Program-made: the position numbers and the translations under genes
The notes under the pieces: model-generated
Database searches by the model: none
The model's input: only the letters and a program-made list of their open reading frames with translations
Told to the model about the DNA's origin: nothing
Shown here: piece after piece, positions 8,084 to 48,195 of the stretch
Layout: each line of letters starts with the position of its first letter
Numbering within the stretch: the first letter of the stretch is position 1
NCBI GenBank assembly: GCA_903920145.1
Contig: CAIXKV010000216.1
Coordinates: forward strand, 1-64,000
DNA length: 64,000 nt
Direction: 5' to 3'
DNA from: an uncultured Rhodospirillales bacterium
GTDB lineage: Bacteria > Pseudomonadota > Alphaproteobacteria > Azospirillales > Azospirillaceae

Positions 8084-8728
8084 ATGACTCGGGGACGGTT
8101 TATCACTCTGGAAGGCGGCGAAGGCGCCGGCAAATCGACTCAAGTCGGAACGCTGGCCGCCGCTCTGCGGGCGCGCGGATTGGACGTGATCACGACTCGC
8201 GAACCGGGGGGTTCAGCCGGGGCTGAGGAGATTCGCACACTGCTGGTAACCGGCGGCGCTGGGCGGTGGAGCGCGCTCACCGAGGCGCTTTTGCATTTTG
8301 CCGCGCGCCGCGATCATCTGGAGCGCGTGGTGTGGCCGGCCTTGGCAAGCGGATGCTGGGTGGTTTCCGATCGCTTCGTCGACAGCACCATAGCCTATCA
8401 GGGCTATGGCCTTGGTTTAGATCGGGCGGTGATCGGGCAATTGTCCGCGTTGGCGCTGGAGGGATTTAGGCCGGATTTAACCCTGGTCCTGGATCTGCCG
8501 CCGGAAATCGGGCTGAGTCGGGCCCTGGCACGGGGACTCGCCGATCGCTATGAGCGCATGGATATGACGTTTCACCAGCGTTTGCGCGATGGTTTTTTGG
8601 ACATCGCTCGACAGGCTCCCGAGCGGTACGCGGTGGTGAACGCCGAAGCCTCTCCGGTGGCGGTGGCGCAAGCGGTCCTGTCGGCGGTTGATCAGCGGCT
8701 GTCGCTCCCCGTGACTGTGAGCGTTTAA
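8084..8728 (+). CDS. tmk: Thymidylate kinase
   Basis: This enzyme phosphorylates dTMP to dTDP. The 214-residue product has the P-loop GGEGAGKST (11-19), the REPGG substrate motif and SDRFVDST (about 94-101) of the DRY/DRF type, all characteristic of TMPK. It starts with ATG and is followed after 3 bases by holB, an arrangement (tmk-holB) common in bacteria. Confidence 0.96.
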   Translation: MTRGRFITLEGGEGAGKSTQVGTLAAALRARGLDVITTREPGGSAGAEEIRTLLVTGGAGRWSALTEALLHFAARRDHLERVVWPALASGCWVVSDRFVDSTIAYQGYGLGLDRAVIGQLSALALEGFRPDLTLVLDLPPEIGLSRALARGLADRYERMDMTFHQRLRDGFLDIARQAPERYAVVNAEASPVAVAQAVLSAVDQRLSLPVTVSV

Positions 8729-8731
8729 CCC

Positions 8732-9853
8732 GTGAGCATTCCGTCGCCCCGTGAAACCTCCGAGTTGTTTGGCCATGAACAGGCCGAGCGGGTGTTACGG
8801 GCGGCCTGGGACAGTGGTCGGCTGCCTCACGCTTGGTTGATCGGCGGGATTAGCGGAATCGGCAAGGCCACTCTGGCCTTCCGCTTTGCCCGCTTTGTTC
8901 TGGCCCAGGAAGGGGATGCCGTCGGCAAAGACGACGAGGGCGGTGGCGGTGGAATCGGCCTTTTCGGCCCGTTGCCAAAGCAACCCTCTTCGGGTTTGTT
9001 TCTGGCGCCTGACCACCCGGTGTTTCGTCGGGTGCGGGCCGGCGGCCATTCCGATCTTCTCACCATCGAACGACGGTTCGATGATAAGCGCGGCAAGATG
9101 AAAACCGACATTGCGGTCGAGGACGTCCGCGATGTTACGGCCTTTCTGCGCCGGACTTCAGGGGAAGGCGGCTGGCGGGTGGTGGTGATCGACGGCGTGG
9201 ATCGGATGAACGCTCATGGCCACAATGCCCTCCTGAAAATCCTGGAAGAACCGCCGACCCGTGCCTTGCTGTTGCTGGTGACCGAGGCGCCGGGTGGTTT
9301 GCTGCCCACCATTCGTTCGCGCTGTCGGAAACTGACGCTGGAGCCATTGGCGGAGTCGGTGCTACGGACGCTGTTGGACCGTCACCGGGCCGAATTGCCC
9401 GAAGCCGATCGTGTGGCCTTGGCCCGCCTGGCGGAAGGCAGCATCGGTCACGCCTTGGCTTTGGCTGATGCCGGTGGCCTGGACCTGTACCGTCAGATGA
9501 TCGCGGTTCTGGGAACCTTACCCCGGTTGGACCAGCGAGGCGCTCATGCTTTCGCCGAAGCCTTGGGACGCAAGGGGGATGATGCCTTTGAAATCGCTTC
9601 GGGACTGTTGATCTGGTGGCTCACCCGACTGATCCGCAGCGGTGCCCGCCGGAGCCCCATTATCGATGTTGTTCCAGGAGAGGGGGCGCTGATCGCACGT
9701 CTGCTCGGTTCCAGCAGCGACGGCAGCCTTGATCGTTGGCTGGATGTATGGGAAAAAGTTTCCCAGTTGTTCGCACGCGCGGACTCCGTCAACCTCGATC
9801 GCAAACAGGTGGTGCTAAACGCCTTGCTTGGCATCGAAGCCGCCACATCTTGA
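8732..9853 (+). CDS. holB: DNA polymerase III delta' subunit
   Basis: HolB is the delta-prime subunit of the clamp loader. The 373-residue protein starts with GTG at 8732, three bases after tmk. It has a Walker-A-like loop GISGIGKAT (about 38-46), the LLKILEEPP motif, and the SRC motif carrying the arginine finger (TIRSRC). A Gly-rich insertion (DDEGGGGGIGLFGPLP region) is in the place where zinc ligands occur in gamma/tau, and cysteines are absent there, consistent with alphaproteobacterial delta'. Confidence 0.92.
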   Translation: MSIPSPRETSELFGHEQAERVLRAAWDSGRLPHAWLIGGISGIGKATLAFRFARFVLAQEGDAVGKDDEGGGGGIGLFGPLPKQPSSGLFLAPDHPVFRRVRAGGHSDLLTIERRFDDKRGKMKTDIAVEDVRDVTAFLRRTSGEGGWRVVVIDGVDRMNAHGHNALLKILEEPPTRALLLLVTEAPGGLLPTIRSRCRKLTLEPLAESVLRTLLDRHRAELPEADRVALARLAEGSIGHALALADAGGLDLYRQMIAVLGTLPRLDQRGAHAFAEALGRKGDDAFEIASGLLIWWLTRLIRSGARRSPIIDVVPGEGALIARLLGSSSDGSLDRWLDVWEKVSQLFARADSVNLDRKQVVLNALLGIEAATS

Positions 9854-11500: not shown

Positions 11501-12304
11501 ATGCTGGTTGATAGTCATTGCCACTTGGATTTTCCCGACTTTGCCCCGGATATGGACGCCGTGGTCGACCGTGCCCGTGAGGCCGGGGTGGGGGTTCTGG
11601 TCTCTATCTGCACCCATGTCAGCCGGTTCCTCGAGGTGCGTGCCGTGGCCGAGCGGTATCCCGAGGTGCTGTGCTCTTTAGGGGTTCACCCCCACCATGC
11701 CAGCGAGGAACTGGAGTTCGCCACCGTTGATGGCCTCGTGGCGCTGGCTGGGCATCCCAAAGTGATTGGGTTGGGTGAAACGGGGTTGGATTTCTTTTAT
11801 AATCACAGTCCGCGTGCGCAGCAGGAAGAAAGCTTCCGGCGTCATTTGCGGGCCTGTGTCGCAACCGGCTTGCCGGCCATTGTCCATAGTCGGGATGCCG
11901 ACGACGAGACTTTGGCCATTCTGGCTGAAGAAGGAGCCGGGCAGGGGCTTACCGGCATCATCCACTGTTTCAGCGGATCGGCGGTCATGGCCGAACGCGC
12001 CTTGGCCTTGGGGTTTCTGCTGTCGATTTCCGGGATCGTCACTTTCAAGAAGGCAGAAGCATTGCGGGACGTCGTGGCAACGGTTCCGCTCGATCGGTTG
12101 TTGGTGGAAACCGATGCCCCTTATCTGACCCCGAATCCCCACCGCGGACGGCGCAACGAACCCGCTTATGTGGTGCATACCGCTGAAGCTGTCGCTCGGA
12201 TCAAAGGGGTGGACCCGGCGGTTTTGGCGGACTCGACCACCCGAAATTTCTTTCGGCTGTTTCCCAAGGCTCAGGCCGTGTTTGGGCCCGCGTCATGCGC
12301 GTAA
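11501..12304 (+). CDS. tatD: TatD-family metal-dependent hydrolase
   Basis: The 267-residue product has the TatD metal-binding signatures: DSHCHLDF at the N-terminus, GLGETGLDFFY, the HSRDAD region and VETDAPYLTP. TatD proteins are 3'-5' DNases of the amidohydrolase superfamily. The start is the ATG at 11501, ten bases after metG; longer frames extend back into metG. It overlaps the next gene by 10 bases. Confidence 0.93.
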   Translation: MLVDSHCHLDFPDFAPDMDAVVDRAREAGVGVLVSICTHVSRFLEVRAVAERYPEVLCSLGVHPHHASEELEFATVDGLVALAGHPKVIGLGETGLDFFYNHSPRAQQEESFRRHLRACVATGLPAIVHSRDADDETLAILAEEGAGQGLTGIIHCFSGSAVMAERALALGFLLSISGIVTFKKAEALRDVVATVPLDRLLVETDAPYLTPNPHRGRRNEPAYVVHTAEAVARIKGVDPAVLADSTTRNFFRLFPKAQAVFGPASCA

Positions 12305-13080
12305 CAATTCTTGGATGTGGCGGATCGGCGGGAGTGCCCACCATCGGCGGTCATTGGGGGGCTTGCGATCCCACCGACCCCCGCAACCGTCGCCGTCGCC
12401 CTTCGGTACTGGTGGAGCATGCTGGCACGGTGATTTTGGTTGACACCACCCCTGACCTCCGTGAGCAACTGATTGATGCTGGTGTTACTCGGTTAGATGC
12501 GGTCCTTTACACCCATGAACACGCGGACCACAGCCACGGTTTGGACGATCTGCGCGAGATCAATCGGCTGATGGATGCGCCGATTCCTGCTTATGGCCGA
12601 TTGGAAACTCTGGAGGATTTGAAACGACGCTTCGGGTATTGTTTTGCGCCGCTGTCGGCCAATGCCGCCACAGTTTATTATCGTCCGGTGCTGGAGCCCC
12701 AGGTTCTTTCGGGAAGCGATCCCTTTACAATCGGCGCTGTGCACGTGATGCCGTTTGTCCAGGACCACGGCTATATGATTACCCTGGGCTATCGGTTCGG
12801 AAATTTCGCCTATTCAACCGACGTTGTGCGCCTGGATGAAACAGCCTTTGCGACGTTGGCCGGTATCACCGCCTGGGTGGTGGATTGTGTGCGCGAAGAA
12901 CCCCACCCGGTCCATTCCCATTTGGAGAATACTCTGGCCTGGATTGACCGAGTCAAGCCGCGCCGCGCTTGGTTCACCCATATGAACAATAATTTGGATT
13001 ATCAGACCCTCCAGAGAAAGCTGCCGCCAGGGATTGCTCCGGCTTATGACGGGTTGGTGATCGACGTCGATGCCTGCTGA
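12295..13080 (+). CDS. Metallo-beta-lactamase-fold hydrolase (PhnP-like)
   Basis: The 261-residue protein has the MBL metal motif THEHADHSHG (about 71-80), a preceding GCGGSAGVP turn, and further ligands (PFVQDHG, STDVV, FTHMNNNLD). The layout matches the PhnP/phosphodiesterase subgroup commonly found after tatD in alphaproteobacteria. Its ATG lies inside the last codons of tatD (12295-12304). The substrate is unknown; cyclic phosphodiesters or RNA-type phosphodiesters are plausible from family knowledge. Confidence 0.88.
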   Translation: MRVTILGCGGSAGVPTIGGHWGACDPTDPRNRRRRPSVLVEHAGTVILVDTTPDLREQLIDAGVTRLDAVLYTHEHADHSHGLDDLREINRLMDAPIPAYGRLETLEDLKRRFGYCFAPLSANAATVYYRPVLEPQVLSGSDPFTIGAVHVMPFVQDHGYMITLGYRFGNFAYSTDVVRLDETAFATLAGITAWVVDCVREEPHPVHSHLENTLAWIDRVKPRRAWFTHMNNNLDYQTLQRKLPPGIAPAYDGLVIDVDAC

Positions 13081-14224
13081 GTGGAAGCCGGCCAAAACGC
13101 CGGAACTCATACCATCGAGCCTTGATGGTGACTCATCAAGTCTGCCCTCAGACGCCGGGCGGGCGCATCCGCGCCCCCTAGAGTCCACATTGCGGCCCGA
13201 TACCGGCGATGTGTCAGTATCAGGGCTCGCCGGTATCATTCATGTCCGATGCGGCGATGACTGTCTTGAAACCCTGCGATTATCGGGCTTGCCGGGCACG
13301 ATTCTGCGCTGGATGGATCCGCTTTGCGAAGGTCCAACTCCGACGGATTTAGATGACGATGGCTTTCGTCGGATTCGAGCTGATTGGTTGGCCGAACGCT
13401 ATCACCTGAATAGTGACGCTCTGTTGGCAACCTTCCGGGAGCAAGACCAAGCGTTAGAACGTGCGGCAATCGACAGCCATGAGGTGCTGCTGTGGATTGA
13501 GCCGAACCTGTTTGACCAACTGATCCTGATTCGTTTGCTTGATCGCCTGTGGCCGTTGGCAGGTGGACGACTCTCTTTGATCAGTGTTGACCGTCGCCCT
13601 GGCGGTGGACGCTTGGTCGGTTTCGGTCAGTTGGGGCCGGCAGCACTAGCGGCGCTGTTTCCCAGTCGCCGCCGGGTAACGGCAACCCAAGCCGCAGTGG
13701 CCTCGCAAGCGTGGCGGGCTTTCACCGCCACAACGCCTGAGCCCCTGGAACGGTTGGTGATGACGAAAAAACTGGAGACGTTGCCGTTTCTCAAGGCCGC
13801 CCTGGATCGTCACCGCCGCCAATATCCTTGGCGACGTCATGGTTTGTCTCTGACCGAATGGCGAACCTTGGAGGCGGTGGCTGGTGGCGCCACAACATCG
13901 CGAGCGGTCTTCGCTTTTCTTCAAGCCCGTGAGCGGGCCCCCTGGCAAGGCTTGGCGATGATCGAGGCCGGATTGCGGGATCTGGCCAGCGGTTTCGCTC
14001 CGGCACTGACCCTGAACGCCGATACCCCGAACGAAAGGCCGTTGGCTCTGACCGAAACAGGCCAAGCGATTTTAGAAGGCCGCGAAACAGCGCCCCCAAG
14101 GGAACGCTGGCTTGGTGGGGTTCATCTCGATGCCCTGAATTCCGAGCCCGATCGGACCGTGTGGTATTGGGACGAGGGAAGCCGGAGTCTTGGTGTCCGT
14201 GCTGGCATCGGAATTTCTAGATAG
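13070..14224 (+). CDS. DUF1835-type protein with repeat-encoded N-terminal extension
   Basis: Residues 56 onward (IIHVRCGDDCLETLRLSGLPG, then DPLCEGPTP) match the start of DUF1835 proteins, whose function is not established. Residues about 17-55 are encoded by copy B of the dispersed multi-hairpin element, which stays open in this frame and fuses exactly at the domain start. The ATG at 13070 overlaps the upstream stop (13080); alternative starts inside the repeat are TTG at 13190 and GTG at 13211, so the extension may be wholly, partly or not translated. No ordinary start codon sits at the domain boundary itself. The gene ends 28 bases before repeat copy C. Confidence 0.8.
   Translation: MPAEWKPAKTPELIPSSLDGDSSSLPSDAGRAHPRPLESTLRPDTGDVSVSGLAGIIHVRCGDDCLETLRLSGLPGTILRWMDPLCEGPTPTDLDDDGFRRIRADWLAERYHLNSDALLATFREQDQALERAAIDSHEVLLWIEPNLFDQLILIRLLDRLWPLAGGRLSLISVDRRPGGGRLVGFGQLGPAALAALFPSRRRVTATQAAVASQAWRAFTATTPEPLERLVMTKKLETLPFLKAALDRHRRQYPWRRHGLSLTEWRTLEAVAGGATTSRAVFAFLQARERAPWQGLAMIEAGLRDLASGFAPALTLNADTPNERPLALTETGQAILEGRETAPPRERWLGGVHLDALNSEPDRTVWYWDEGSRSLGVRAGIGISR
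13119..13238 (+). repeat. Dispersed multi-hairpin element, copy B (within a CDS)
   Basis: This copy retains the first palindrome (GCCTTGATG/CATCAAG), the GGGCG/CGCCC hairpin and the perfect terminal GATACCGGCGA/TCGCCGGTATC hairpin, but lacks the third hairpin and half of the fourth. It lies inside the frame of the DUF1835 gene and contains no stop in that frame. The flank CATACCATCGA just upstream is shared with copy D, so the element may begin about 15 bases earlier. Confidence 0.88.
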
Positions 14225-14252: not shown

Positions 14253-14409
14253 GCCTTGATGTTGACTCATCAAGGCTACCCTTAGACGCCGGGCGGGCGC
14301 AGATGCGCCCCCCTAACGTCACACGGGAGCTTCGCGTCCACGAAGACGCAGGGCCGCACATCGCGGCCCGATACCGGCGATGTGTCAGTGTCAGGGCTCG
14401 CCGGTATCA
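14253..14409 (+). repeat. Dispersed multi-hairpin element, copy C
   Basis: A near full-length copy sits between the convergent DUF1835 and pentapeptide-repeat genes. All five inverted repeats are present: GCCTTGATG/CATCAAGGC, GGGCGCA/TGCGCCC, GCGTC/GACGC, GGGCCGC/GCGGCCC and GATACCGGCGA/TCGCCGGTATC. Relative to copy D, the second hairpin has gained an extra A-T pair and the fourth has a changed loop only, which keeps pairing intact. Position between gene ends suggests it could act as a bidirectional transcript end. Confidence 0.9.
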
Positions 14410-26093: not shown

Positions 26094-26105
26094 TTGGGAT
26101 ATCCT

Positions 26106-26149
26106 GATCGGGCGGCAGAAAACAACGGCGAACCCCACCCCGCCCGATC
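26106..26149 (-). promoter_or_regulatory. Probable riboswitch expression-platform hairpin
   Basis: A perfect 10-base inverted repeat (GATCGGGCGG at 26106-26115, complement at 26140-26149) sits between the riboswitch core and the GTG start at 26093. It could occlude the ribosome site or end transcription. The upstream arm adjoins the last riboswitch helix, so alternative pairing is possible. Confidence 0.6.
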
Positions 26150-26150
26150 G

Positions 26151-26280
26151 CGGAGAGGTCCAACCGTTGGTCTCGCCATGCCAAAAAAGGCCCCACGCGC
26201 CATGGCAATATATTTTTGCCAAGCCTGTTGACGCGCGGCCCGATCGTGATCGTCGGGCGGCTACTCCCCAAAGGACGTGG
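26151..26280 (-). ncRNA. yybP-ykoY manganese riboswitch
   Basis: On the minus strand the leader begins CCTTTGGGGAGTAGCC (GGGGAGUAG at 26269-26261), continues with a GTCAACA segment, and ends with GGCGAGACC and the facing GGACCTCTCC near 26177-26151. These are the two conserved loop segments of the yybP-ykoY class, which binds Mn2+ across two docked loops. It precedes a GDT1-family gene, a known partner of this riboswitch. Identification is by eye from the conserved segments. Confidence 0.88.
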
Positions 26281-31333: not shown

Positions 31334-33739
31334 ATGACCCGACTGAAGCCGATTGATGCGCGATTGGCGACCGCCTTAGTGGTGGCGGTGATGGCCGCGC
31401 TTTTCGGCTGGCAAATGATCGGGGTGCGCCAAACCGCGCTTGATCAGGCTGGTCAACAAAGTATGGCGTTGGCCCGAACCGCCGAGCGACAGGTTCTTGG
31501 CAGTCTGCGCGGTGCTGAGATGCTGGCTACCGATGTTTCGGCCTTATTGGTTGAACGCGGGGTGAGTGACGGCGATGTCCCACCTATTCTCAAGACACGG
31601 TTGGCAGCCTATCCCGAGTTGCGGTCTTTGAAGCTGATCGATGATGCCGGTCGCGAGCTTTTGATGGTGGAGCGCCCCCGAGAGGGTGGCCCCCATGCCG
31701 GGATAGCCCCCGTTGCCGCCGATCACGACACGCTGCTTATTGAACGTCCGCTGATCACCCCCGATGGCCTCCGGTTAGGGCGCATCATGATTGAGGTTGC
31801 GGCCCGGCCCGTAACAGACGTTCTGTCGGCTTTGCCACTCGGCGCCAATGGGAAAGCTTGGTTAGCCGACTCTGACGGTCGTGCGGTTATTGCCGTAGAG
31901 TCTGACCCGGTCAACCGAATCACCGAAGATACAGCCAATAAAATGAGCACATCGATCGGAGCCTTCGTGATCGGTCGCCCGCTATCGGGTGAACGATCAA
32001 TGATTGTGCGCCTATCCGATCCAACGAGTAGGTTTCAGCGGTTGATCGCTGTCCGGCCTGTCGATGGCTACCCGTTGCAAATCGCCGTTGGTTTGTCAGT
32101 GGATACGGTCCTGGCTTCGTGGCGTGAAAATCTGCTGTGGTATGGTGGGGTCACGCTGATATTGGGGGCGTTGGCCCTGATTTATGCCTGGGCTCTCGAC
32201 CGCCAAAGCCGAAATACCGTGACTGCCCGTCGGGAAAAGGAACATTTATTAGCGGCAGCCGCTGCTCATCAACGCGGTATTCTTGATGCAACCATCGATG
32301 GCTTGATCACAATAGATGAAAATAGTTTGGTTTTAGGAATAAACCGTTCAGTAGAACGGATTTTTGGCTATCGCGAAATGGAACTGTTAGGTCAACCTGT
32401 TAGCCGGCTGGTTCCAGCCTTAACGCTTGACGCGATCTTTTCCGGTCTGGCTCGAGAGTTGGAAGGGTTTCGCAAAGATAACAGTGTTATCCCATTGGAT
32501 TTAGCAATAGCCGAATTGCCGACGGAAGCAACGCTTTCGTTATCTGCCGGCGCACGCGTTTTTATTGGAACTGTCCGTGATTTAAGCGAAAAAAGAGCAG
32601 CCGAAACGGCATTAAGGGCATCACAGGCACGTAACACCGCTATCCTTGCCGCCGCCGCCGAAGGAATTATCGCAGTCGAACCAGAAGGTCGAATGGAGAC
32701 GGTCAACGCCGCCGCTGGTCGCATCTTCGGCTATGATCCAGTTGAACTCATTGGACAAGATATTTCAATTCTAATCCCAGAAGTCTTTTCTACCCCATTA
32801 GAAAGACAATCTATTGGAGATATCTATGTATCCGATGATCACTGCCCAGATCGCAAGCGTGAAGTCATCGGGCGACGTCGGGATGGTCGAACATTTCCAT
32901 TAGAAATGGCCATCAGCATCTTAGAACAGGCGGGTCATCGCCTGTTTATCGCTGTGGTTGGTGATATCACCCAACGAAAAGAAGCCGAATCCGCCTTAAG
33001 AAATGCGAAACTTGATGCCGAAGCTGCAAATCAAGCAAAAACTCAATTTTTAGCTCATATGAGTCATGAATTACGGACCCCATTAAATGCCATTATCGGA
33101 TTTTCTGATATGATGAAGCAAGAAATGGTTGGGTCATTAAGTCCAATCTATCTTGATTATGCCCGAAATATTAATGATAGTGGGAAGCAATTAATAGCTA
33201 TTATTGATGATTTATTAGATGTTTCTCGCTTACAACTTGGTAAATTTCCACTTAATGACGGTATTGTTGATTTACATGGAGCCGTTACAGGGGCTTTGGC
33301 TATTATGCGGTCCCGTGCCGAAGATGGGGGAATCCTATTAACCGAAGCCGTTGCCGAGTCTTTGCCGAAATTGCGGGGAGACGCCCGTGCCATTCGTCAA
33401 CTTTTGATCAATTTAGTGAGTAATGCCATTAAATTTACACCGCGCAATGGTACCGTACAGATTTGTGGAAAATATAGTGGTGATGGTCGATTAATAATAT
33501 CTGTAGTTGATACCGGGCGCGGCATACCACCAGATATGATTGATCATGTTCTCGATCCATTCCACCATACTGATCCTTTTACGGCCAGCAAAACCCGTGG
33601 CATAGGTCTTGGCTTACCAATTTGTCGTTGGTTAATGGAACTTCACGGAGGATTATTGACTATAAAAAGCACAATTCCGGTTGGAACTACAGTTATTGTT
33701 GATTTTCCCAAAGAACGCGTTCTTTTATCGATTATGTAA
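31334..33739 (+). CDS. Membrane sensor histidine kinase with extracytoplasmic sensor and two PAS domains
   Basis: From the ATG at 31334 the product is 801 residues: TM1 (about 11-32), an extracytoplasmic Cache-like sensor (about 40-265), TM2 (about 268-287), PAS1 (about 312-415), PAS2 (about 435-550), a HisKA domain with the phospho-accepting His578 in HMSHELRTPLNAI, and a HATPase domain with N-box (LINLVSNAIKFTP) and DTGRGIPP and GIGLGLPICR. No receiver domain or linked response regulator is seen. A TTG at 31277 could add 19 residues. The first half is GC-rich and the second half markedly AT-rich, with the switch near 32250. Confidence 0.88.
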   Translation: MTRLKPIDARLATALVVAVMAALFGWQMIGVRQTALDQAGQQSMALARTAERQVLGSLRGAEMLATDVSALLVERGVSDGDVPPILKTRLAAYPELRSLKLIDDAGRELLMVERPREGGPHAGIAPVAADHDTLLIERPLITPDGLRLGRIMIEVAARPVTDVLSALPLGANGKAWLADSDGRAVIAVESDPVNRITEDTANKMSTSIGAFVIGRPLSGERSMIVRLSDPTSRFQRLIAVRPVDGYPLQIAVGLSVDTVLASWRENLLWYGGVTLILGALALIYAWALDRQSRNTVTARREKEHLLAAAAAHQRGILDATIDGLITIDENSLVLGINRSVERIFGYREMELLGQPVSRLVPALTLDAIFSGLARELEGFRKDNSVIPLDLAIAELPTEATLSLSAGARVFIGTVRDLSEKRAAETALRASQARNTAILAAAAEGIIAVEPEGRMETVNAAAGRIFGYDPVELIGQDISILIPEVFSTPLERQSIGDIYVSDDHCPDRKREVIGRRRDGRTFPLEMAISILEQAGHRLFIAVVGDITQRKEAESALRNAKLDAEAANQAKTQFLAHMSHELRTPLNAIIGFSDMMKQEMVGSLSPIYLDYARNINDSGKQLIAIIDDLLDVSRLQLGKFPLNDGIVDLHGAVTGALAIMRSRAEDGGILLTEAVAESLPKLRGDARAIRQLLINLVSNAIKFTPRNGTVQICGKYSGDGRLIISVVDTGRGIPPDMIDHVLDPFHHTDPFTASKTRGIGLGLPICRWLMELHGGLLTIKSTIPVGTTVIVDFPKERVLLSIM

Positions 33740-33942
33740 GTTTCTGCAAAAGTCGTAATAATAAATGTCATAACAGCATTGACAATTTTGAGAGAAAAAA
33801 CGAGAATTGGTTGTTGACAGGAATTCAGCCAGGGACTAGGACCACTTCAGGACAACTGGCCATGTTGGTATATTGGTAACGAATGATTGGTCCTGGCAAT
33901 AAATTAGAGTAACGATCATCAGAAAGTCTGGAGTACTGCATA

Positions 33943-35625
33943 ATGAAACATATCGCCATTGGCACCCGTCTTTTTTTCATTGTCGGTGTTGCGATCGCTG
34001 GTATGATCGCCGTTGGCTTAGTTGGCTTGGTGAATCTGAAGCAAGAGTTGCTATTAGACCGCAAAGATACGGTTAGAAATCTGGTTGAAAGCGCCTATGC
34101 TACGATTGATTATTATGCTGATTTGGTTCGCAAAGGCGAGCTGACCCGTGATCAGGGACAAAAAGGCGCATTATCAGCATTGCGACATATTCGCTTTGAT
34201 AAGACCAATTATTTTTTTGTAACAGATATGGATGGCGTCATGCTGATGCATCCAATTGATCATACGCTTGAGGGTAAAAGTCAAATTGGTATAACTGATG
34301 CTTCTGGTAAAAAATTAGTCGCAGAAATGATCAGTATTGCGCGCAATGATGGTGCTGGATTTGTCTCTTATGCTTTCGCAAAGCCAGGGGTTAAGGATCC
34401 CCAGCCAAAATTATCCTATGTGATGAAGTATAATGATTGGTCATGGATGGTTGTTGCTGGAATTTATATTGATGATGTCGATCGAGCTTTTTGGTATCGA
34501 GGGATTCAGGTCGGATTGGTTGGATCATTAGTCTTGTTAATAACCGTCGGAATTGCTATTTTCATTGGTAGGGGAATTTCCAGACCCTTAACGACAATTA
34601 CCAAGAGAATGGATGGGCTTGCTCATGGTGATTTGAGGGTGGATGTACCGGATACAGATCGAGGAGACGAAGTCGGTGCGCTAGCTCGCTCACTTCAGGT
34701 CTTTAAAGACAATGCATTACGAATAGAGGAACTCCGGCAAGAGCAGCACGAAGCCGAGACCCGTGCCGCTACTGAGCGTCGGCAAGTCCTCTTGGACATG
34801 GCAGATCAACTTGAGGCAGAAACTGGGCACATTGTCGATGCGTTGACCAAAGCGTGTCATAACATGGAACTAACCGCACAGGGCTTGTCGTCCCTTGCCG
34901 AGGAAACTAGCCGACAGGCAGTGGCGGTCGCTGCGGGCTCGGAAGAGGCTAGCGCCAACGTCCAGACTGTAGCAACGGCCACCAACCAGCTGACTGCGTC
35001 AGTGGCGGAAATAGCTCGGCGAGTCGCCAGTTCAGCCGTGATTTGTCAGGAAGCTGTGGTTCGAGCCAACACTGCAAACCAGGAGGTTCGAGGATTATCT
35101 GAGGCTGCCGCTAAAATTGGCGAAGTCATTCAACTAATCACGGCCATTGCCGAGCAAACCAATCTCTTGGCGCTAAACGCGACCATTGAGGCTGCGCGGG
35201 CAGGGGAGGCTGGTAAAGGATTTGCCGTGGTGGCAGGAGAAGTAAAAGCTTTAGCCACACAAACAGCCAAAGCTACGGAAGATATTACCGCCCAAGTTTC
35301 AACAATGCAAACTGTTACCAATGGCACAGTTGCTGCTATTAATGAAATTACCACGGTAATTAATCGCGTTAGTGAAATCAGCACTTTTATTGCTTCAGCT
35401 ATCGAAGAACAAGGTGCCGCAACGCGTGAAATAGCTCGCAATATCGAGCAAGCATCTTTTGGAACCAGTGAAGTGGCTGCAAATATTAATGGTGTAAAAG
35501 AAGCTGCTCATGATACTGGAAATTCGGCAACTACAGTCTTAGATGTCTCAAAAGACTTAGCTGGTTTAGCATCTGACCTACGAGAGCAGGTTAGTACTTT
35601 CCTTAAGAAAGTTCGTGTGGGCTAA
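33943..35625 (+). CDS. Methyl-accepting chemotaxis protein with single Cache (sCache_2) sensor
   Basis: The 560-residue receptor has TM1 (about 9-32), a periplasmic sCache_2 domain (about 35-180; [21 protein letters not shown] and [23 protein letters not shown]), TM2 (about 188-210), a HAMP domain (about 212-265) and an MCP signalling domain with the hairpin tip [28 protein letters not shown] region. sCache_2 receptors often bind small organic acids, but the ligand is unknown. No CheR-tether motif is present at the C-terminus. Confidence 0.93.
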
Positions 35626-35963
35626 TTTTAGAAGCTCAGTTTTGATCATCGGTTCATGAAAAAGTAACGGCGCTGGCGGTCCTGGTAAAGCACGGATGGC
35701 GCTTCGCCAGGAGCCAAGAGGTGTAGGCACCACCGCCCCGGTGAAAATGGGGGAGATGCCCGGTCGTCTTTTGACCATGACTTTGTTTCCTCGAATAGAT
35801 GAATTCACTCGCCACGCAAACCGAGCAAAACATCGCCCTCAGGTTGATACAGTATCTAAAATCAATGACTGCCTTAATAGATTAACCTCGAAAATCAATG
35901 GTATTACATATAAATTTCAATTGGTTTTTGACGTAAAATGATTGATCATAATATCCTCAAAAT
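35626..35963. other. Intergenic region between convergent genes
   Basis: This 338-base gap separates the plus-strand chemoreceptor from the minus-strand metallophosphoesterase. The left half (35660-35770) is GC-rich and the right half AT-rich. Both strands have open frames (81 residues on plus, 76 on minus) but neither shows a conserved motif or good ribosome site. No terminator with a clear T-run is seen. Confidence 0.35.
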
Positions 35964-36779
35964 TTAATCTCCTATAATCAACCAGCGATGATGACTACGA
36001 CTATACGTGGTACGCTCACTGGTTGAAAATTTATTACCAGTCCATGCACGTTCTTCAAAAATAACGTGTGGAGAGGCTATAGTAATAAAATTGTAACTAT
36101 TAGGTTCATTTCGAAGCCGAGTTGAAGTCGCGGTAGCCGCATGAGCAACGAGGATCGATCGTTCAACCTGCTGATGATGTTCGGCAATATCACCGCTAAA
36201 CCCTCGATGCAAATGCCCTGCAAGCAACAAATCAACGCCACATGATTCAAGAGCTGGTAATGCTAGCCGTGCCCGTCCTAATAAAGATTTGCCATTGATT
36301 CCAGGTGGAGGAAGAAATGGATGATGAGTAACTACTACTTTAAATATAGAAGGTGGAATTGCATGAAATGCTGCCTCAATTCTCGATATTTGATTATGAT
36401 TAATTCGTCCATGAGCAAAATTTAGAATAAATGAGCGCGCTGTATTAATTCCAAGAATTGCAATTTCATCATCCATAATAAAAGGATTGAGATCTTTTGT
36501 TATATAATGCTTATAATTATGAAAAGGTGCGATAAATCTTGCAATAAGATTGTAGGCTGGAATATCATGATTGCCTGGAACCACCAACCAAGGCGCGGGC
36601 AAGCGCTCTAAAAAAGCGCTGGCGGCACGAAAGTGGCATCGACGGGCGCGCTGAACTAAGTCGCCGCTAATGACAACCAAAGACGGGCGCAATAAATCAA
36701 GGTCAAAAAGCAAAGCTTCGACAACTTCAAGATTAATTTTACCAAAATGCAAATCAGAAAGATGGGCTATGGTTCTCAT
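35964..36779 (-). CDS. Calcineurin-like metallophosphoesterase
   Basis: The 271-residue protein has all five metal motifs of the superfamily: SDLHFG (8-13), GDLVQ, GNHD, VVTHHPF and GHLHRG. Proteins of this type include cyclic nucleotide and phospholipid-headgroup phosphodiesterases. Its ATG overlaps the stop of the lipid-kinase-like gene (ATGA at 36776-36779), so the two are co-translated, favouring a role in lipid or phospho-metabolite turnover. Substrate unknown. Confidence 0.88.
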   Translation of the reverse strand: MRTIAHLSDLHFGKINLEVVEALLFDLDLLRPSLVVISGDLVQRARRCHFRAASAFLERLPAPWLVVPGNHDIPAYNLIARFIAPFHNYKHYITKDLNPFIMDDEIAILGINTARSFILNFAHGRINHNQISRIEAAFHAIPPSIFKVVVTHHPFLPPPGINGKSLLGRARLALPALESCGVDLLLAGHLHRGFSGDIAEHHQQVERSILVAHAATATSTRLRNEPNSYNFITIASPHVIFEERAWTGNKFSTSERTTYSRSHHRWLIIGD

Positions 36780-37690
36780 AGACGATATTCCGGAGCAGGT
36801 GCCAATACCGTAAGGGCTTTTGGTCGAATACGGTAAATTAGCGGTAGCATTAATCGAATGACTTCGCCATCAATGGCGACTCGTAAACGGTGACGACGCT
36901 GACTGGTGACAGTAAGTTCAGTAAGAGTCAACGATTCAAGCTCGGCATCGCGTTGCCATCCACCAAGCGCCAAACCAACCATAAGCCTGATTAGGCCGAG
37001 GCGGGTTCGATGATTTGCCAAATAAATAGCCAATCGACCATCATCAAGTGTTGGACGGTCTAAAAATAAAGCATCCGGTCGATCATGATAAACATTATTT
37101 ACAACAGCTAGAGCAGGCGTCTTAACTAATCGTGGACCTTTACCAAGATCAACTGAAACTTCAGCGACATTATAATATTTTAAAGATTTAAAAATTGCGG
37201 ATGCAATTGAAATCCATTTTTTCCAACCGGCAACACCTCTTTGTCGTTCCCTAGCTCTAACCATTGTTGGATATAGACCTATGACAGAATTATTTAAAAA
37301 AATATGGCCATTAACCTCAGCGACATCAATTTTTCTGGTATATCCATTCGATAATATATCGATAGCAGCCTGTATGTTATTCGGCATACCAAGGTCTCGG
37401 GCCAACAAATTCATAGTTCCAAGTGGTAGCAATCCCATAGCTTTATTACTATGAAGCAACAAACCTGCGGCGGCGGCTAAAGTCCCATCGCCACCACCAA
37501 TCACGATAGCATCAACATCTGTTCCCAAGAAAGCGCGAATTTCCTCTTCAATCGCCACACCTCTAGCGGCTCGAACTGTCGCTTCAACCCCGGCTGCCGC
37601 AAACCCGGCACCGATATCGGCTACTGTGCGGGCGATTGGCGCTCCGAGCAGGGTTCCGGCTGCTTCATTCAAAATGACTGCAAATTTCAT
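36776..37690 (-). CDS. Diacylglycerol/sphingosine kinase-family protein
   Basis: The 304-residue protein has the DAGK catalytic signature GGGDGTLAAAAGLL (about 65-78) and LPLGTMNLLARDLGMP (about 87-102). Members phosphorylate diacylglycerol, sphingoid bases or similar lipids. The ATG at 37690 directly precedes KFAVILNEAAG, the usual N-terminus; an in-frame ATG at 37723 would add 11 residues. A downstream phosphoesterase overlaps by four bases, giving a kinase/phosphatase-type pair. Confidence 0.87.
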   Translation of the reverse strand: MKFAVILNEAAGTLLGAPIARTVADIGAGFAAAGVEATVRAARGVAIEEEIRAFLGTDVDAIVIGGGDGTLAAAAGLLLHSNKAMGLLPLGTMNLLARDLGMPNNIQAAIDILSNGYTRKIDVAEVNGHIFLNNSVIGLYPTMVRARERQRGVAGWKKWISIASAIFKSLKYYNVAEVSVDLGKGPRLVKTPALAVVNNVYHDRPDALFLDRPTLDDGRLAIYLANHRTRLGLIRLMVGLALGGWQRDAELESLTLTELTVTSQRRHRLRVAIDGEVIRLMLPLIYRIRPKALTVLAPAPEYRL

Positions 37691-37862
37691 TCGACGGATG
37701 ACACACCTCCAGGCTCGCACCATCTATAGCTATGGCGAATGTTGGCTTGCTGCAAGATTGCTTTTTAGCGATGGAAGGTCTCGATGTTGCTGTCGCCGAG
37801 GGCTAGAATTATAGCCGTAGCAGGGGACAAGCCCGCAGTTAAAAAGATCAAGGGGGCGGAGT

Positions 37863-38117
37863 ATGGGTATTGTCGGGCCTTTTATGATGGCGCTCCTGCT
37901 GATCGGCTGGAGCCTGGAGGGGGCTTGGGCGGCCGGTGCTGAAGCTGAGGCTAAGGCGACGGCCTCAGCCTCTAATTGCAAGCCAGGCAAAATTGAGGTC
38001 ATAAGGCAAATTCCAGGAAGCAATGGGGAGATTGTTTATAAAGTAATGTGTACTGATTATCAACAGATGTTTGTTCTTGTTGAATGTCGACAGCGTTTGT
38101 GCGTTCTTTTGAGATAA
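37863..38117 (+). CDS. Small exported cysteine-containing protein
   Basis: The 84-residue product has a signal peptide (MMALLLIGWSLEGAWAAGA), an Ala/Glu-rich stretch, then a compact region with three or four Cys (NCKPGKIEV, MCTDY, ECRQRLC) that may form disulfides in the periplasm. GGGGCGGAG lies just upstream. The next gene, also for an exported protein, follows by 46 bases. Family not recognised. Confidence 0.65.
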   Translation: MGIVGPFMMALLLIGWSLEGAWAAGAEAEAKATASASNCKPGKIEVIRQIPGSNGEIVYKVMCTDYQQMFVLVECRQRLCVLLR

Positions 38118-38163
38118 TGGCTTCGAGCTAAAAGCAAACCACTGTAATGAAACAGAGGAAAAA

Positions 38164-38508
38164 ATGAAAATAATTGCCATTATACTCTTGTGCCTGACAG
38201 CTTTAGAAGGTTGTGAGGCAATGATGGTTGCAGCATCTATTCCATTAGCTACTAGCGCAACCACTTTGTCGCAAACTAAAAAATTACCGACAGATCACGC
38301 TTTATCAAGCGCAACTGGGAAAGACTGCTCTGCTCTTTCATATGAAAAAACTGGAGTTTATTGTCCTCCTTATCCTCAAGAAGTTGATCGTTCTAAACTA
38401 TCTTGCATTAAAACCTTGGGTGACGTTGAGTGTCATCAACAGCCGGATCGTTACGCCAATGGTGAACGAACCCTGGCCAGTCCACCACCACCACCGCCGC
38501 AACCTTGA
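38164..38508 (+). CDS. Small lipoprotein
   Basis: The 114-residue protein begins with a lipoprotein signal (IIAIILLCLTALEGC; lipobox LEGC, Cys17). The mature part has a DHALSSATGKDCSALSYEKTG segment, three further Cys, and ends in a run of prolines. AGAGGAAAA lies directly before the ATG. I recall the D-H-x-x-S-x-x-x-G-x-D-C pattern from small exported proteins of related bacteria, but no function is known to me. Confidence 0.7.
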   Translation: MKIIAIILLCLTALEGCEAMMVAASIPLATSATTLSQTKKLPTDHALSSATGKDCSALSYEKTGVYCPPYPQEVDRSKLSCIKTLGDVECHQQPDRYANGERTLASPPPPPPQP

Positions 38509-38686
38509 AATGCCTCCTTCATCTAAAAAAGGGCTGGCATTTTGCATCGGAACAGATTATTCACGCTCGGTGGAGGTTCGGACGGGGCTCATCACGATGA
38601 TTCGCCAGCACAAAAATGATCGACGACGATCAAACGCCCCGTATTGCGCGGGTGTGATCGTTAAGGATCGCGTATCGGCGCCGTTA

Positions 38687-38762
38687 AGCTGATTTCCGTT
38701 TAGCGGTTGATCAGCTTTCCCGGCCTCGGCGCGCTTCGCGCCAGTCATACATTGCCGGGAAA
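38687..38762. promoter_or_regulatory. Structured leader: three inverted repeats before the GNAT gene
   Basis: Three hairpins lie in 76 bases: AAGCTGAT/ATCAGCTT (38687-38694 and 38710-38717), TTTCCCGG/CCGGGAAA (38716-38723 and 38755-38762), and within the latter GGCGCG/CGCGCC-type arms (38728-38742). The first and second overlap by two bases, so they could form alternately. The next gene begins 11 bases later with its ribosome site (ACGGAG) beside the last stem. Confidence 0.55.
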
Positions 38763-38773
38763 GTCTTACGGAG

Positions 38774-39262
38774 ATGCAGATTATTGCCGAGCAGCCGGGT
38801 CATACCGGCGGCATCGAGGGTCTTCTTGATCTTGCCTTTGGAACTGATCGTTCCAATAAAACAGTTTATCGGCTACGGGCCGGCGTGGAGCCTCTCAGAG
38901 AGTTATGTTTTGTCGCGCTTCAAAATAATCATATCGAAGGAACCATTCGTTATTGGCCCATCACTATCGGAATGGAACATCCGGCTCTCTTACTTGGGCC
39001 GATTGCCGTAGCTGAACATCGGCGTAGCGAAGGGCTAGGAGGCGTCCTGATTCGGTACAGCCTAAACCGGGCCGCAGCCCTTGGCCACAGAATCGTGCTT
39101 CTGGTCGGTGATGCCCCATATTACCAGCGATTTGGCTTTTCCAGAGCGCAAACCCTTGGCCTTACCCTTCCAGGGCCTGTTAATCTTGATCGCTTTCTTG
39201 GCTTAGATCTAGTCCCAGGAGCGTTAGATGGACTATCAGGAGATGTTCGGTCCATACTTTAA
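38774..39262 (+). CDS. GNAT-family N-acetyltransferase (YhbS-like)
   Basis: The 162-residue protein has a GNAT fold: LGPIAVAEHRRSEGLGGVLIRYSL (motif A with the R/Q-x-x-G-x-G/A acetyl-CoA loop, about 74-97), VLLVGDAPYYQRFGFSRA, and a C-terminal segment LVPGALDGLSG typical of the YhbS/COG3153 group. Substrate unknown. The ribosome site is very close to the ATG, and a structured leader sits just upstream. Confidence 0.85.
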   Translation: MQIIAEQPGHTGGIEGLLDLAFGTDRSNKTVYRLRAGVEPLRELCFVALQNNHIEGTIRYWPITIGMEHPALLLGPIAVAEHRRSEGLGGVLIRYSLNRAAALGHRIVLLVGDAPYYQRFGFSRAQTLGLTLPGPVNLDRFLGLDLVPGALDGLSGDVRSIL

Positions 39263-39290
39263 CTTTAATACCAAGTTCTAATCGGCAAAT

Positions 39291-39330
39291 AACATCAAGT
39301 CTTGATATTAATACATCAAGGCTTGATGTT
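39291..39330. repeat. Tandem ATCAAG-n-CTTGAT palindromes 21 bases apart
   Basis: Two 13-base palindromes, ATCAAG-T-CTTGAT (39294-39306) and ATCAAG-G-CTTGAT (39315-39327), have centres exactly 21 bases apart, and the whole 40-base segment is itself an inverted repeat (AACATCAAG to CTTGATGTT). It lies between convergent gene ends. The half-site CTTGATG/CATCAAG is also the arm of the first hairpin in the dispersed element. Confidence 0.7.
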
Positions 39331-39383
39331 ATGCCAGAAAATTTATTTGAAACTAATCAATTCCTTTATCATAAAAATCGCCA

Positions 39384-40835
39384 TCAATACTTCCCTTGCT
39401 TGACAAAAGATTCTAGCCTTAGCAATAAATTTCGAGACAAATCAACTGGAAGAGCGCTTGCTGCCAAGGTTATTGCCAATTGCTGAACAAGTTGCTCCTT
39501 TTCTGATTTTTCAAGTGTATCTCCAAATAAATCACTTAAATTCCTTGTCTGCAAAAATATTTCCGCAAGTTTTTTTAGTAAAAAAGAGCTTTGTCCTTCT
39601 GTAATTGTCGGCGCTCCCTTCAAAGAAATAATCAAACTTATAACAGAAGATTTGTTTGGCAACAGACTACAGACCTCATTAACGGCTTCATCGAAAGATA
39701 AATCTTCAATACCATTGCCCAGTACACTTCGTGCCCGTTTGATCAGCGCCAAGGCCATAGAACCACCGCCTCGACAACCAACAGAATCGCATAAACCAAT
39801 AATTAATCGTCGAAGAACTGTTTCTTCAGCATCTCTTCCAAAATTTGTTAAGCGCATAGAGCCATCTAAAGTTTTAAGAATTCTCCGTAGAACAATTTCT
39901 TCTGTTGCCGGTAGTTGCTGTGTCCGTGAAATAGCTCGAATGCGCGGAACAACGGCAGCTGTTCGAGGAGCCGCAAGCCTAAGGTCAATCCCCAGTAATC
40001 CAACTAAAACATCTAGAACTTCAGATAAATCAGTAGCAGCTCCCATAATTTCCTTGATTGCGGTCGCACCATCGAGAAGCTCTGCCAGAGCTTCATCGAG
40101 TAAATGAAGTCCATTTTCAGATATAGACTCTCCAAATAAAGATATTATAGTCTCTATTTTTTGAGTCCACGACGTGACGGTACTTAAACGTTTTGCTAAG
40201 GCAAAAGTTAGTAAAATAGAACGTTTTGATTCTGGGGCTGTTTCAATAAATTGCAATAACCCAGTAATACCTCCATGATCCAGGGCGGTTGCCGCTGGAA
40301 GAAAACTTTCAAAGTCATTAGTTTGCTTAAGTACATCGGTCAGCAATCTTTCTGCTAGGCCATCCCCTTGCTTTTTTAGCGTGTCAGATGGCTCTAAAAC
40401 TTTTTTTAATTGTGAAACAACCTGAGTATAAACTTTATGATCTTTAGTCAATCGAGTAAGCCGCTCTCGATTGTGAATCAGTTCAATTACAGGAATATTT
40501 TCCCGATCAAGGTAATTTCTTAAAATTCTTCCGAGCATAAGCCTAAAGCGAAATGAATACAAATCAGATGATGATGACAATGTTATAACATCATCAGCAG
40601 GCATAATTCGGATTGGGGCTTCAGCAATAGAAGTTATTTTCTCAAAAATCATTTTTTCTCGAAGACTTGGGTCAACTGCAAATATTCGAACGGCTTCATA
40701 TTTAATTTGTCCAATCAAGGCATCGGCCCGCGCCAGAGCCTCCCTTTGATCTTTATAAATACCATCAATATGACTAGATCCTCTTAATTCCGTCCGAATC
40801 TCAAATATTACATTAGAACGTAAAAGCATATTCAT
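39384..40835 (-). CDS. Unknown helical protein, second gene of a two-gene operon
   Basis: The 483-residue protein has a small N-terminal alpha/beta domain (about 8-55; FEIRTEL, YKDQREALARADALI, EAVRIF) and then an all-helical remainder without signal peptide or membrane segments. A GRDAEETVLRRLIIGLCDSVG region and a Gly-rich SVGCRGGGSMALALI turn stand out. It lies 23 bases after the degenerate-EAL gene on the same strand. GC content is low. The N-terminal domain is of a type I associate with Rhodospirillales signalling-linked proteins; I cannot assign a function. Confidence 0.72.
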   Translation of the reverse strand: MNMLLRSNVIFEIRTELRGSSHIDGIYKDQREALARADALIGQIKYEAVRIFAVDPSLREKMIFEKITSIAEAPIRIMPADDVITLSSSSDLYSFRFRLMLGRILRNYLDRENIPVIELIHNRERLTRLTKDHKVYTQVVSQLKKVLEPSDTLKKQGDGLAERLLTDVLKQTNDFESFLPAATALDHGGITGLLQFIETAPESKRSILLTFALAKRLSTVTSWTQKIETIISLFGESISENGLHLLDEALAELLDGATAIKEIMGAATDLSEVLDVLVGLLGIDLRLAAPRTAAVVPRIRAISRTQQLPATEEIVLRRILKTLDGSMRLTNFGRDAEETVLRRLIIGLCDSVGCRGGGSMALALIKRARSVLGNGIEDLSFDEAVNEVCSLLPNKSSVISLIISLKGAPTITEGQSSFLLKKLAEIFLQTRNLSDLFGDTLEKSEKEQLVQQLAITLAASALPVDLSRNLLLRLESFVKQGKY

Positions 40836-40858
40836 CTCCCGCGAGCTATATCGCCCTA

Positions 40859-42403
40859 TTATTTATCTACATATGTCAGTACAGAGGTGGCAAAGCTTCT
40901 CTCCTGTTCAATTTCAGCAAGTTGCTCAACCAAACGATCAATAAAAGCATTCTGCCGCAGCGTAGCACTTGCTTTCTGGGCCAAAAGCTTACCGCGTAAT
41001 CCATTGAGTTCTGCTTGTGCATCTTCAACAATATCCCGAGAGCCAAATCCACCCAGATGTCTAATAAAAGCCCCCCAGCCATTAATAGTAGAAGCAGCAT
41101 CTCTTAAATCAGCCTGAAGAATATTAGAAACCTCTTCTCCAATAGAATCCAGTGATCGATCAACAAAATATCCTTGATAGAGTCGAATTCCATTTTGAAC
41201 ACCAATTTCAACAGAACGTTCGTTACTAACATGAGTTAAAGCAACCAAACAACCTTGACGTTGTATGCGCTTAACTTCAACGCCGGCACCAGAAGAAAAT
41301 GTCACATCAGCTCGCCCGCCATCAACCTTAATTAATGATGCATTAAAGCGTTCTGGATCCACGGTGCTGAACACTCTTGGGTCAACCCAATCAATACAGC
41401 AAGCAACTCCTAATCCTTTTAATCGGCGAACAGCCAATAAATACCGATCAAGATTAGCAATAACATCTGAAAAGCGAAATTCAATCATTAATTGCGGTAA
41501 CCGTTGTTGATAATGAATTTCAAATTTTTCAAAGTCTAAAGAAAATAAACTTTCAACATTTAAGTTTATTGATGATGGCTTTGTCAAAAATTCAGCATTT
41601 TGACAAAGCGATTTAAGAATATACTTATCAAGAATAACTGTCATTTCAGCAAAAATAGTCGCATCATCCCACACCTTAACTTGTGGCAATAAGAATTTTT
41701 TAAGATTTTTAATATTTGTATAATACTCTGTTGAAAATGCATTCATTTTTGAATCGCTACTGCGAAACATTGCCATAGTCTGACTCGTTGATAATAAGTC
41801 AGTGAAGCCAGCAGGTCCAATTCGTTCAAGCTTATTTGATAAAAGCTCCAAATGAGCACGAGTCAAAATTTCTGTTCCATTTTTTTTTAGAGCTTTTTCT
41901 TTTCCTTCCTCTGACTTTGTTCCAGAAGCAGCAAGAACTGTATGTTGATTAATTCTGTCTAGGCGCCGAAACGCTTTTTGACGATCTCGTTTCGCATCTA
42001 TAATATTAAATAAACGAGCTTGATCTAAATGAGCTAAAACCCCTGGATAAAATTTATCGATGGTTTTGAGAATTAAAAGTTTTATATCAGTCACAATGCC
42101 AATAGCACTATAGGCATTAAGATCAAGCAATATAACAAGAACAAACTCTCCGGCATCGTAAAACTCTATAGAATTTCCTTTCGTTGCAGTATATCCATCA
42201 TCAAATTCATCCGAGCAACCGCCTAAACGAAGAAATGCATTTTTCTCCAAGCTTTTCAATACTGTCTTACGAATTTCAGCGGCAACCGATGATTTTGGGG
42301 TTTGCTCATCATCTGGAAGAGCCAACAGATTAACAGTCATCAAAAAATATTGATGTTTCGCAGGAGTTTCTAAGCGCCTCTGTATCTGTATGGTGATTGA
42401 CAT
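40859..42403 (-). CDS. Protein with a degenerate EAL-like C-terminal domain
   Basis: In this 514-residue soluble protein, residues about 280-420 follow the EAL phosphodiesterase plan: LNVESLFS, LMIEFRF (305-311), GLGVACCIDW (331-339), LIKVDGG (357-363), GCLVALTHVSN (384-394) and GIRLYQGYF (405-413). Catalytic positions are changed: the second acidic residue after IE is Arg310, the D-D-F motif is D-W-V, and the A-E-G-V-E motif is A-L-T-H-V. It should therefore not hydrolyse c-di-GMP, though binding or partner contact is possible. Residues 1-270 are unknown. It is the first gene of a pair with 39384-40835. Confidence 0.75.
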   Translation of the reverse strand: MSITIQIQRRLETPAKHQYFLMTVNLLALPDDEQTPKSSVAAEIRKTVLKSLEKNAFLRLGGCSDEFDDGYTATKGNSIEFYDAGEFVLVILLDLNAYSAIGIVTDIKLLILKTIDKFYPGVLAHLDQARLFNIIDAKRDRQKAFRRLDRINQHTVLAASGTKSEEGKEKALKKNGTEILTRAHLELLSNKLERIGPAGFTDLLSTSQTMAMFRSSDSKMNAFSTEYYTNIKNLKKFLLPQVKVWDDATIFAEMTVILDKYILKSLCQNAEFLTKPSSINLNVESLFSLDFEKFEIHYQQRLPQLMIEFRFSDVIANLDRYLLAVRRLKGLGVACCIDWVDPRVFSTVDPERFNASLIKVDGGRADVTFSSGAGVEVKRIQRQGCLVALTHVSNERSVEIGVQNGIRLYQGYFVDRSLDSIGEEVSNILQADLRDAASTINGWGAFIRHLGGFGSRDIVEDAQAELNGLRGKLLAQKASATLRQNAFIDRLVEQLAEIEQERSFATSVLTYVDK

Positions 42404-42728
42404 TAGTATACTTCCTCACGTTCTTAGCATACATCATTTAAATTTAAGCTGATAAACTTCAATTATATTAAAACCATAAACGATCCTATTTGTTTTATTG
42501 TATTTTTTTTATTATTCGCACTTTCTCCTCCTTATTACTTTTTTTTCGCACTAATTCATCGATCAGTCGTGCCTGCTGAGACAGCCGTCCACTGAATCTA
42601 TGTGCAAGAAATCCAAAAAGTCAAGAAAATTAACCATTCACCCACAGCAACAGCTCCGCACGCCACGGATAGGGGCGACAGGTTGAGAAAAAATACATTA
42701 TATAATATAAAATATCACAAATATAGAA
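42404..42728. other. AT-rich intergenic region
   Basis: This 325-base gap separates two minus-strand genes and should contain the promoter of the degenerate-EAL operon. It is very AT-rich at both ends (runs of TATA-like sequence near 42690-42730) with a GC-rich island at about 42580-42680. I see no gene and no clear terminator after the chemoreceptor. Confidence 0.35.
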
Positions 42729-44741: not shown

Positions 44742-45502
44742 TGGTCACCAATTGATGTTACGCACCGATCTTGGAGAGGCTAAAGCAGCCTGCCACCGAA
44801 TATCTACGTCAAACCGTGCGGACATTATGCTAGCTCTCGGTTCCCTTCAATATGCTTGTTGGTTTTAAAAAGGGTATTTAGCTCTTTTAGAGGAAAATTA
44901 ATTTTTTGAGTGGGAAACCGGCACAAACGTTTCGCTCGGTAATGAATACAGGATTTTCGGCTGTTTTGTAAACTTAGGAGCAAGCTTGGCATGCTTCGGG
45001 CTGAAAGCACCTCAAGCCGCTAGACACGCCTTTCCGATTTGCCCTTCCGAGTTTGCCACAGAGAGATGGTGGCGTTGGCAATTTATGCCGTTGTCGCCAT
45101 TGTTTACCGCCAAGGAATGTGTTGAACTGGCCTGGGCAATTGATCAACGCTCGGATTGTCGTAATTTTCCTAGTGTTTTCGGCAAGATCGTTGGTTGGCC
45201 TCGTTCGCGCCACCGACTCTGATATGACGGGCATCGTGTCCGTCATCCGATAAGGTGGTCCTTTTTGAGGCTGGATACACTTTGAGTAGAATTGATATCC
45301 TGTCAGCTTTAGGGAGCACGTGATCATAAGTAGTTTTTGTCTTACTTACATGATAATCAGAATGTTTTTGGCTGGAACTCTCTTGAAAGATGAATAAATT
45401 GCGCTGATCCTGAAAGTTTAACGGCAATTGGGTGTGCCAAGAACATGAAGTAACACCAAGAGCGATGTAGAATCCTATTCGTGAAAAATTGGAGTCAAAA
45501 CC
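44742..45502. other. Long divergent intergenic region
   Basis: This 761-base gap lies between two divergent chemoreceptor genes. A GC-richer block at about 44985-45260 has open frames on both strands (78 residues on plus, 117 on minus), neither with recognisable motifs, and an ATGACGG/CCGTCAT inverted repeat at 45224-45246. It may hold a small unknown gene, an eroded gene or both promoters. Nothing is certain. Confidence 0.35.
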
Positions 45503-47848: not shown

Positions 47849-47914
47849 GGTACGAAGGTAAAAAGTGTGCTTTTCCAATGGCGATGTAGCTTTATGAGAA
47901 TCAATCGGATTCTA

Positions 47915-48165
47915 AGCATTTAAAATGCTGGCGCAAAACTCAAGACATCGGAATCACAACCAGCCTAGCGATTATTTTTGGTTTATCTGTGATCTTAACT
48001 GTTTTGAGTTTTGGACCGGCAGTATGGCAGGATATCTAGACGGCAGACGCTTTTTCGAAGCACAAACCATCGCCACAATGGCATGAGATAACTACGGCAC
48101 AGTGGAAGCACGGACCCTCTCGCCCGCACCCCTGTCAGATAACCTGACGCGACCTACCAGCTTTA
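47915..48165 (+). pseudogene. Remnant of a sensor/chemoreceptor N-terminus
   Basis: One frame reads GITTSLAIIFGLSVILTVLS then FGPAVWQDI and a stop (TAG at 48037-48039), then TADAF; a shifted frame continues AQTIATMA, a stop, then EARTLSPAPLSDN. This matches the plan of a membrane-sensor N-terminus (transmembrane helix then helical sensor) broken by two stops and a frameshift. It sits between two intact receptors. Confidence 0.4.
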
Positions 48166-48195
48166 AACGCAACTGAGATTCGGGAGAGCACATCG

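Follow-up and report, generated by a model that had tools for sequence, protein, structure and literature searches.

The window, i.e. the whole 64-kb stretch of DNA under analysis, holds several copies of a palindromic repeat, which we term A to D, together with one shortened copy. Copy B (13110-13235, + strand), delimited by repeat comparison and RNA folding, is 126 bp long, runs from TACC to GGTA and lies inside a DUF1835 gene of 384 aa (13070-14224, +), in whose frame it is read as IPSSLDGDSSSLPSDAGRAHPRPLESTLRPDTGDVSVSGLAGI, the last codon being completed by the TCA on its right. The gene was assigned from its open reading frame, a PF08874 match and the same ATG and overlap in a sister species. 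As an earlier note on this DNA had claimed, the frame contains no stop within copy B; there is no frameshift either, the 43 added codons being in phase. The PF08874 (DUF1835) match (E 4.5e-07) begins at residue 57, straight after the repeat-encoded stretch. The ATG at 13070 overlaps, in ATGCCTGCTGA, the stop codon of an upstream gene with a metallo-beta-lactamase fold (12295-13080, +), identified by its open reading frame, a domain search and the same overlap in the sister.

Two TCA triplets, at 13107-13109 and 13236-13238, flank copy B, which is shortened internally relative to the 147-165 bp that are usual. Copy A (1-140, +) is cut by the contig start; copy C (14254-14409, +) is intergenic, lies 3' of the DUF1835 gene and has a degenerate left end; copy D (58904-59067, +) is 164 bp long with TCA on either side. 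The shortened, degenerate copy (59757-59836, -, within 59757-59860) occupies the N-terminus of a glycosyltransferase-like open reading frame (MQSRGTFHQGSLQTPSECDLIPTRCHGQGSPVSLSSPTLSVIIPTLN...), its right half coming from the repeat search and its left half having been recognised by eye in the sequence. It is apparently in frame, in a phase different from that of copy B, and the ATG of this reading frame overlaps a possible upstream stop (TGATG). In the genome of origin (G000; 4.26 Mb) the 32-base 3' core of the repeat has at least 110 exact matches, and a reversed control pattern has none. These copy numbers derive from pattern searches and retrieved stretches of a fragmented assembly of 269 contigs, many of which break at repeat copies, so that numerous copies lie at contig ends.

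The copies start with TACC and finish with GGTA, and they are composed of a left hairpin (CCTTGATG...CATCAAGG), an inner module (CCCTCAGACGCCGGGCGGGCGC...) and a right hairpin, mostly about 100-168 bp in all. Among the 95 copies with both ends recognised, 70 are flanked by TNA on both sides, and the same N is found on the two sides in 51 of these 70, compared with 24.6 after shuffling, a value of 51 never being reached in 10,000 trials. Because part of the 95-copy set was retrieved by a pattern whose last letters are TCA (TGA on the opposite strand), the TCA/TGA pairs are inflated; the TTA/TTA (n=4) and TAA/TAA (n=3) pairs support the signal independently of this retrieval, as do the TGA/TGA and TAA/TAA copies obtained by other routes. 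TNA is thus a 3-bp target duplication, and the two TCA triplets around copy B are assigned to it on these statistics. The element length is divisible by three in 50 of the 95 copies, a figure that is descriptive only since related copies are not independent. The RNA fold of 13107-13238 has a predicted energy of -65.1 kcal/mol (z -5.5). Short, multicopy, palindromic, devoid of an internal transposase gene and flanked by a target site duplication, the element is a non-autonomous, MITE-like palindrome.

The comparison with a sister species (genus-mate G003) reveals the empty site. Its DUF1835 orthologue (L002; 63% identical) lacks the repeat and begins MPADAPGLTHIRCGDD. When copy B and one TCA are removed from the present gene, the remainder reads ...GAACTCATTCATGTCCGATGC, matching ...GGCCTCACTCATATCCGCTGC of the sister. 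The ATGCCTGCTGA overlap with the upstream stop is identical in both genomes, and the 60 bases upstream of it are closely similar. Since excision restores a sister-like sequence with the same ATG overlap, the insertion adds 129 bp, i.e. 126 bp of element and 3 bp of duplication, or 43 codons, and retains the ancestral start. In the alignment, the repeat-encoded segment is also absent from the DUF1835 orthologues of six other relatives, some of which have unrelated sequence preceding the same first strand; none of the orthologues carries the extension. A 15-nt difference (WKPAK) just before the element is separate from the insertion and lacks explanation. As read from the aligned sequences, an insertion whose empty site can be reconstructed amounts to unusually clean empty-site evidence.

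Together with the core matches and the TNA duplication, the insert-free orthologue bears out the earlier proposal of an in-frame insertion, at the protein's N-terminus, by a mobile palindrome. The span then given (13070-13260) took in the gene start as well, and the inserted part is 13110-13238. The junction with the first conserved strand, to which the earlier note had drawn attention, looks incidental, judging from the landing site in codons 13-14, 13 codons downstream of the ATG, where CTCA|TTCAT is a TNA site like those of other repeat copies.

The site of translation initiation was considered from the in-frame start codons, which are ATG at 13070, TTG at 13190, GTG at 13211 and TTG at 13289. 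No ATG, GTG or TTG occurs in frame between the repeat end and the conserved IHVRCGDD strand, and a start at 13289 would drop the conserved HVRCGDD; hence translation of the full domain begins in or before the repeat, as had been argued in the earlier note. Of the two observations that the note named as refuting, a start codon after 13238 and orthologues with the same extension, neither was made. Its further suggestion that the original start codon had been replaced did not survive the sister comparison, because the identical overlap and the similar 60 upstream bases imply that the ATG at 13070 is ancestral and retained. No strong Shine-Dalgarno sequence was seen upstream of 13070, so the assignment of this start rests on conservation and the overlap, on which grounds we favour it.

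Alternatively, translation might start inside the repeat, at the TTG (13190-13192, +) or the GTG (13211-13213, +) found in the start-codon scan. In that case the 5' part of the element would stay untranslated, as a hairpin with a possible effect on expression, and the protein would contain no more than about 9-16 residues from the repeat. Both codons are in frame, the predicted hairpin is strong, and for REPs near the starts of open reading frames in other bacteria a non-coding, regulatory role has been suggested (PMC3733652). However, the sister species keeps the ATG and its overlap with the upstream stop, the frame is unbroken from 13070, and TTG and GTG are weaker starts. We regard initiation within the repeat as unlikely.

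Copies of the element also lie in frame in other proteins; the following are those found rather than a genome-wide count. Alignments show inserts in a TIGR02302/DUF4175 protein (L111), an OGT-type glycosyltransferase (L095) and HypF (L100), the orthologues of which lack the insert. A receiver domain (L245) is interrupted, with the Response_reg profile matched over positions 1-52 alone, before the element, and a methyltransferase domain (L253) is split by the element according to Pfam. Further candidates, called from the open reading frame and neighbouring domains only, are a kinase/AAA/GAF protein (L124), an Fe-S protein (L247), a GTP cyclohydrolase II protein (L249), an HTH protein (L108) and an NRPS-like reading frame of 2433 aa with two repeat copies (L243:7801-7999 and 8719-8880). 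One of these two copies is directly adjacent to a condensation-domain motif, HHAVGDG, and, from its position, may bear on the activity of that domain. An asparaginase (L097) has a short similarity to the repeat, and the alignment revealed no real insertion. Several reading frames over repeats (e.g. L158 and L146) were set aside as well, their translations suggesting antisense or chance frames.

By itself, an open frame is weak evidence, because in shuffled copies any one forward frame is free of stops in about 38-46% of cases. In the phase that begins with the final base of TNA, 37 of 40 copies are open in the forward orientation and 25 of 40 in the reverse, while one other phase is never open. 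On average, however, a copy has 2.0 open frames, equal to the 1.96 of shuffled copies; for this reason, and because related copies do not bear independent witness to openness, we rejected the idea that the element is designed for coding. What goes beyond chance is the insert-free sister orthologue, the TNA duplication and the in-frame copies inside other conserved proteins.

In a strict excision test, the element was closed up, and joined reading frames were retained if they reached 300 aa in total and 80 aa on either side. Nine were obtained, five of which are open with the element present, and the remaining four appear from the sequence to lie at or near gene starts; no clearly disrupted mid-gene insertion was seen among the nine. 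Substitutions relative to the consensus in eight in-gene copies are distributed as 32/29/29 over the three codon positions. In line with this even distribution, the predicted disorder of the tail and open frames equal to those of shuffles, no sign of selection on the repeat-encoded peptide was found. The excision test and the codon-position substitutions fit tolerance with loss of disruptive insertions rather than selection for the peptide, and the element is most likely tolerated selfish DNA.

Two other outcomes of the insertion were weighed. The element is mobile and a forward frame is often open by chance, at the shuffled frequency given above, so the insertion could have inactivated the DUF1835 gene, the open frame being a chance survivor of a recent event; yet the protein is otherwise intact and of full length, the columns invariant among eight orthologues are retained, and in-frame copies occur in several other conserved genes, which makes inactivation improbable. 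Recruitment of the peptide for a function, e.g. as a linker or interaction tail, is more doubtful still: the peptide is retained and its Ser/Asp/Pro/Arg-rich composition is of a kind able to act as a linker, but the segment is predicted to be disordered, substitutions in in-gene copies are spread evenly over codon positions, and the same peptide occurs at unrelated sites in unrelated proteins.

We therefore return to tolerated insertion, for which the following history is proposed. A non-autonomous MITE-like palindrome, presumably mobilised by a transposase, has spread through this Rhodospirillales genome and inserted into codons 13-14 of the DUF1835 gene, duplicating the target TCA. As the 43-codon unit is stop-free in the phase in which it landed, the gene stays open from its original ATG at 13070, and coupling to the upstream gene that overlaps it is the probable mode of translation. 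Its product would carry 43 Ser/Asp/Pro/Arg-rich and probably disordered residues immediately ahead of the first beta strand, where they would do little harm; AlphaFold, run on eight sequences, predicts residues 1-52 to be disordered (pLDDT about 30) and places the first strand at 56-61. This account as a whole, from mobile insertion to a harmless tail, seems to us very probable.

In-frame fusion of MITE-like palindromes is known for the Rickettsia palindromic element (RPE), ERIC/RU-1, YPAL, the 107-bp Correia element and the GTAG/CGTC REPs (PMC2229807, PMC10969869, PMC3733652, PMC3767692). RPE is similar in being a palindrome of about 100-150 bp with many copies, both intergenic and in frame in conserved genes, and with a stop-free frame (PMC2229807, PMC3767692, PMC10969869). 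Likewise, the present palindrome lies in frame in genes whose homologues lack it, as seen in the DUF1835, TIGR02302, OGT-type and HypF alignments. In contrast to RPE, its host belongs to another order and has a much larger genome, its ends are TACC/GGTA, and its TNA target duplication is clear, whereas that of RPE is listed as unknown (PMC2229807). The analogy with RPE in a different order, drawn in the earlier note, is supported; the element works like RPE, the two being compared by description rather than by sequence, and family membership is not implied.

ERIC/RU-1, YPAL/RU-2 and Correia are also MITE-like, some with open frames fused to genes (PMC2229807), but reside in other hosts. Correia, which is coding in its 107-bp form but not in its 155-bp form, has TA at its ends and terminal repeats of about 24 bp (PMC2229807); the element has neither a TA duplication nor such inverted repeats, showing instead the TNA duplication and a short terminal match. 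The GTAG/CGTC REPs are palindromes that are sometimes grouped or composite and sometimes coding, and CGTC families occur across Alphaproteobacteria (PMC3733652). The present element differs from them in being longer, in its 3-bp target duplication and in its TACC/GGTA tips without GTAG or CGTC, and the RAYT-like locus of this genome (L171) is flanked by a different repeat. The repeat has no match in Rfam, and our literature search found neither a named family matching it nor a published description.

Of PF01797, PF01609, PF13340, PF13586 and PF13358, with which the genome was searched, PF13340 gave no match, and no autonomous parent with TACC ends was recognised among the loci examined, those of PF01797 and PF01609. 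The RAYT-like gene and the related DDE transposases L172 and L173 were rejected as parents since their own terminal repeats differ from the element. The RAYT-like (Y1_Tnp) gene, at L171:1405-2216, carries its own flanking inverted repeat, TTACGGTGACAGTGCA, unrelated to the element.

Across the genus, matches to copy B number 18 in G001 and one in G002, whereas G003 and G004 have none. Among the matches listed for a stretch of 22 bases from the inner module are records named Azospirillum, Niveispirillum, Nitrospirillum, Magnetospirillum, Phaeospirillum, Telmatospirillum, Terasakiella, Kiloniellales, Falsiroseomonas and others, and no clear in-gene case was seen among these matches in other genera. 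In Azospirillum sp. RU38E (L180, L181, L189 and L190), the inner module sits within a differently sequenced TNATACC...GGTATNA palindrome, an arrangement that, from the sequences, suggests module exchange between repeat families.

Translated selfish palindromes in conserved genes are best known from Rickettsia. It is conceivable, and we advance this tentatively, at somewhat less than even chance, that an undescribed palindromic MITE family in a Rhodospirillales genus is a recurrent source of translated insertions of about 40-70 residues in many unrelated proteins, owing to common lengths divisible by three and to a phase without stops in both orientations, and that the Rickettsia phenomenon has thereby arisen independently a second time. 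With more than 100 copies in about 4.3 Mb, readable empty sites in a sister species, and insertions affecting HypF, a methyltransferase, a receiver domain and probably an NRPS, this genome allows a test of the tolerance of proteins to random in-frame insertions and perhaps of their use of them. For annotation, repeat-encoded peptides can mimic domains or extensions.

Elsewhere in the window, a yybP-ykoY manganese riboswitch was detected at 26101-26274 (-; Rfam RF00080, 64.3 bits). The region 32001-52000 looks like an acquired island; its G+C content is 38-47%, compared with about 59-62% at the window start, and it contains direct repeats of 300 bp, 70% identical, at 46750 and 49323.
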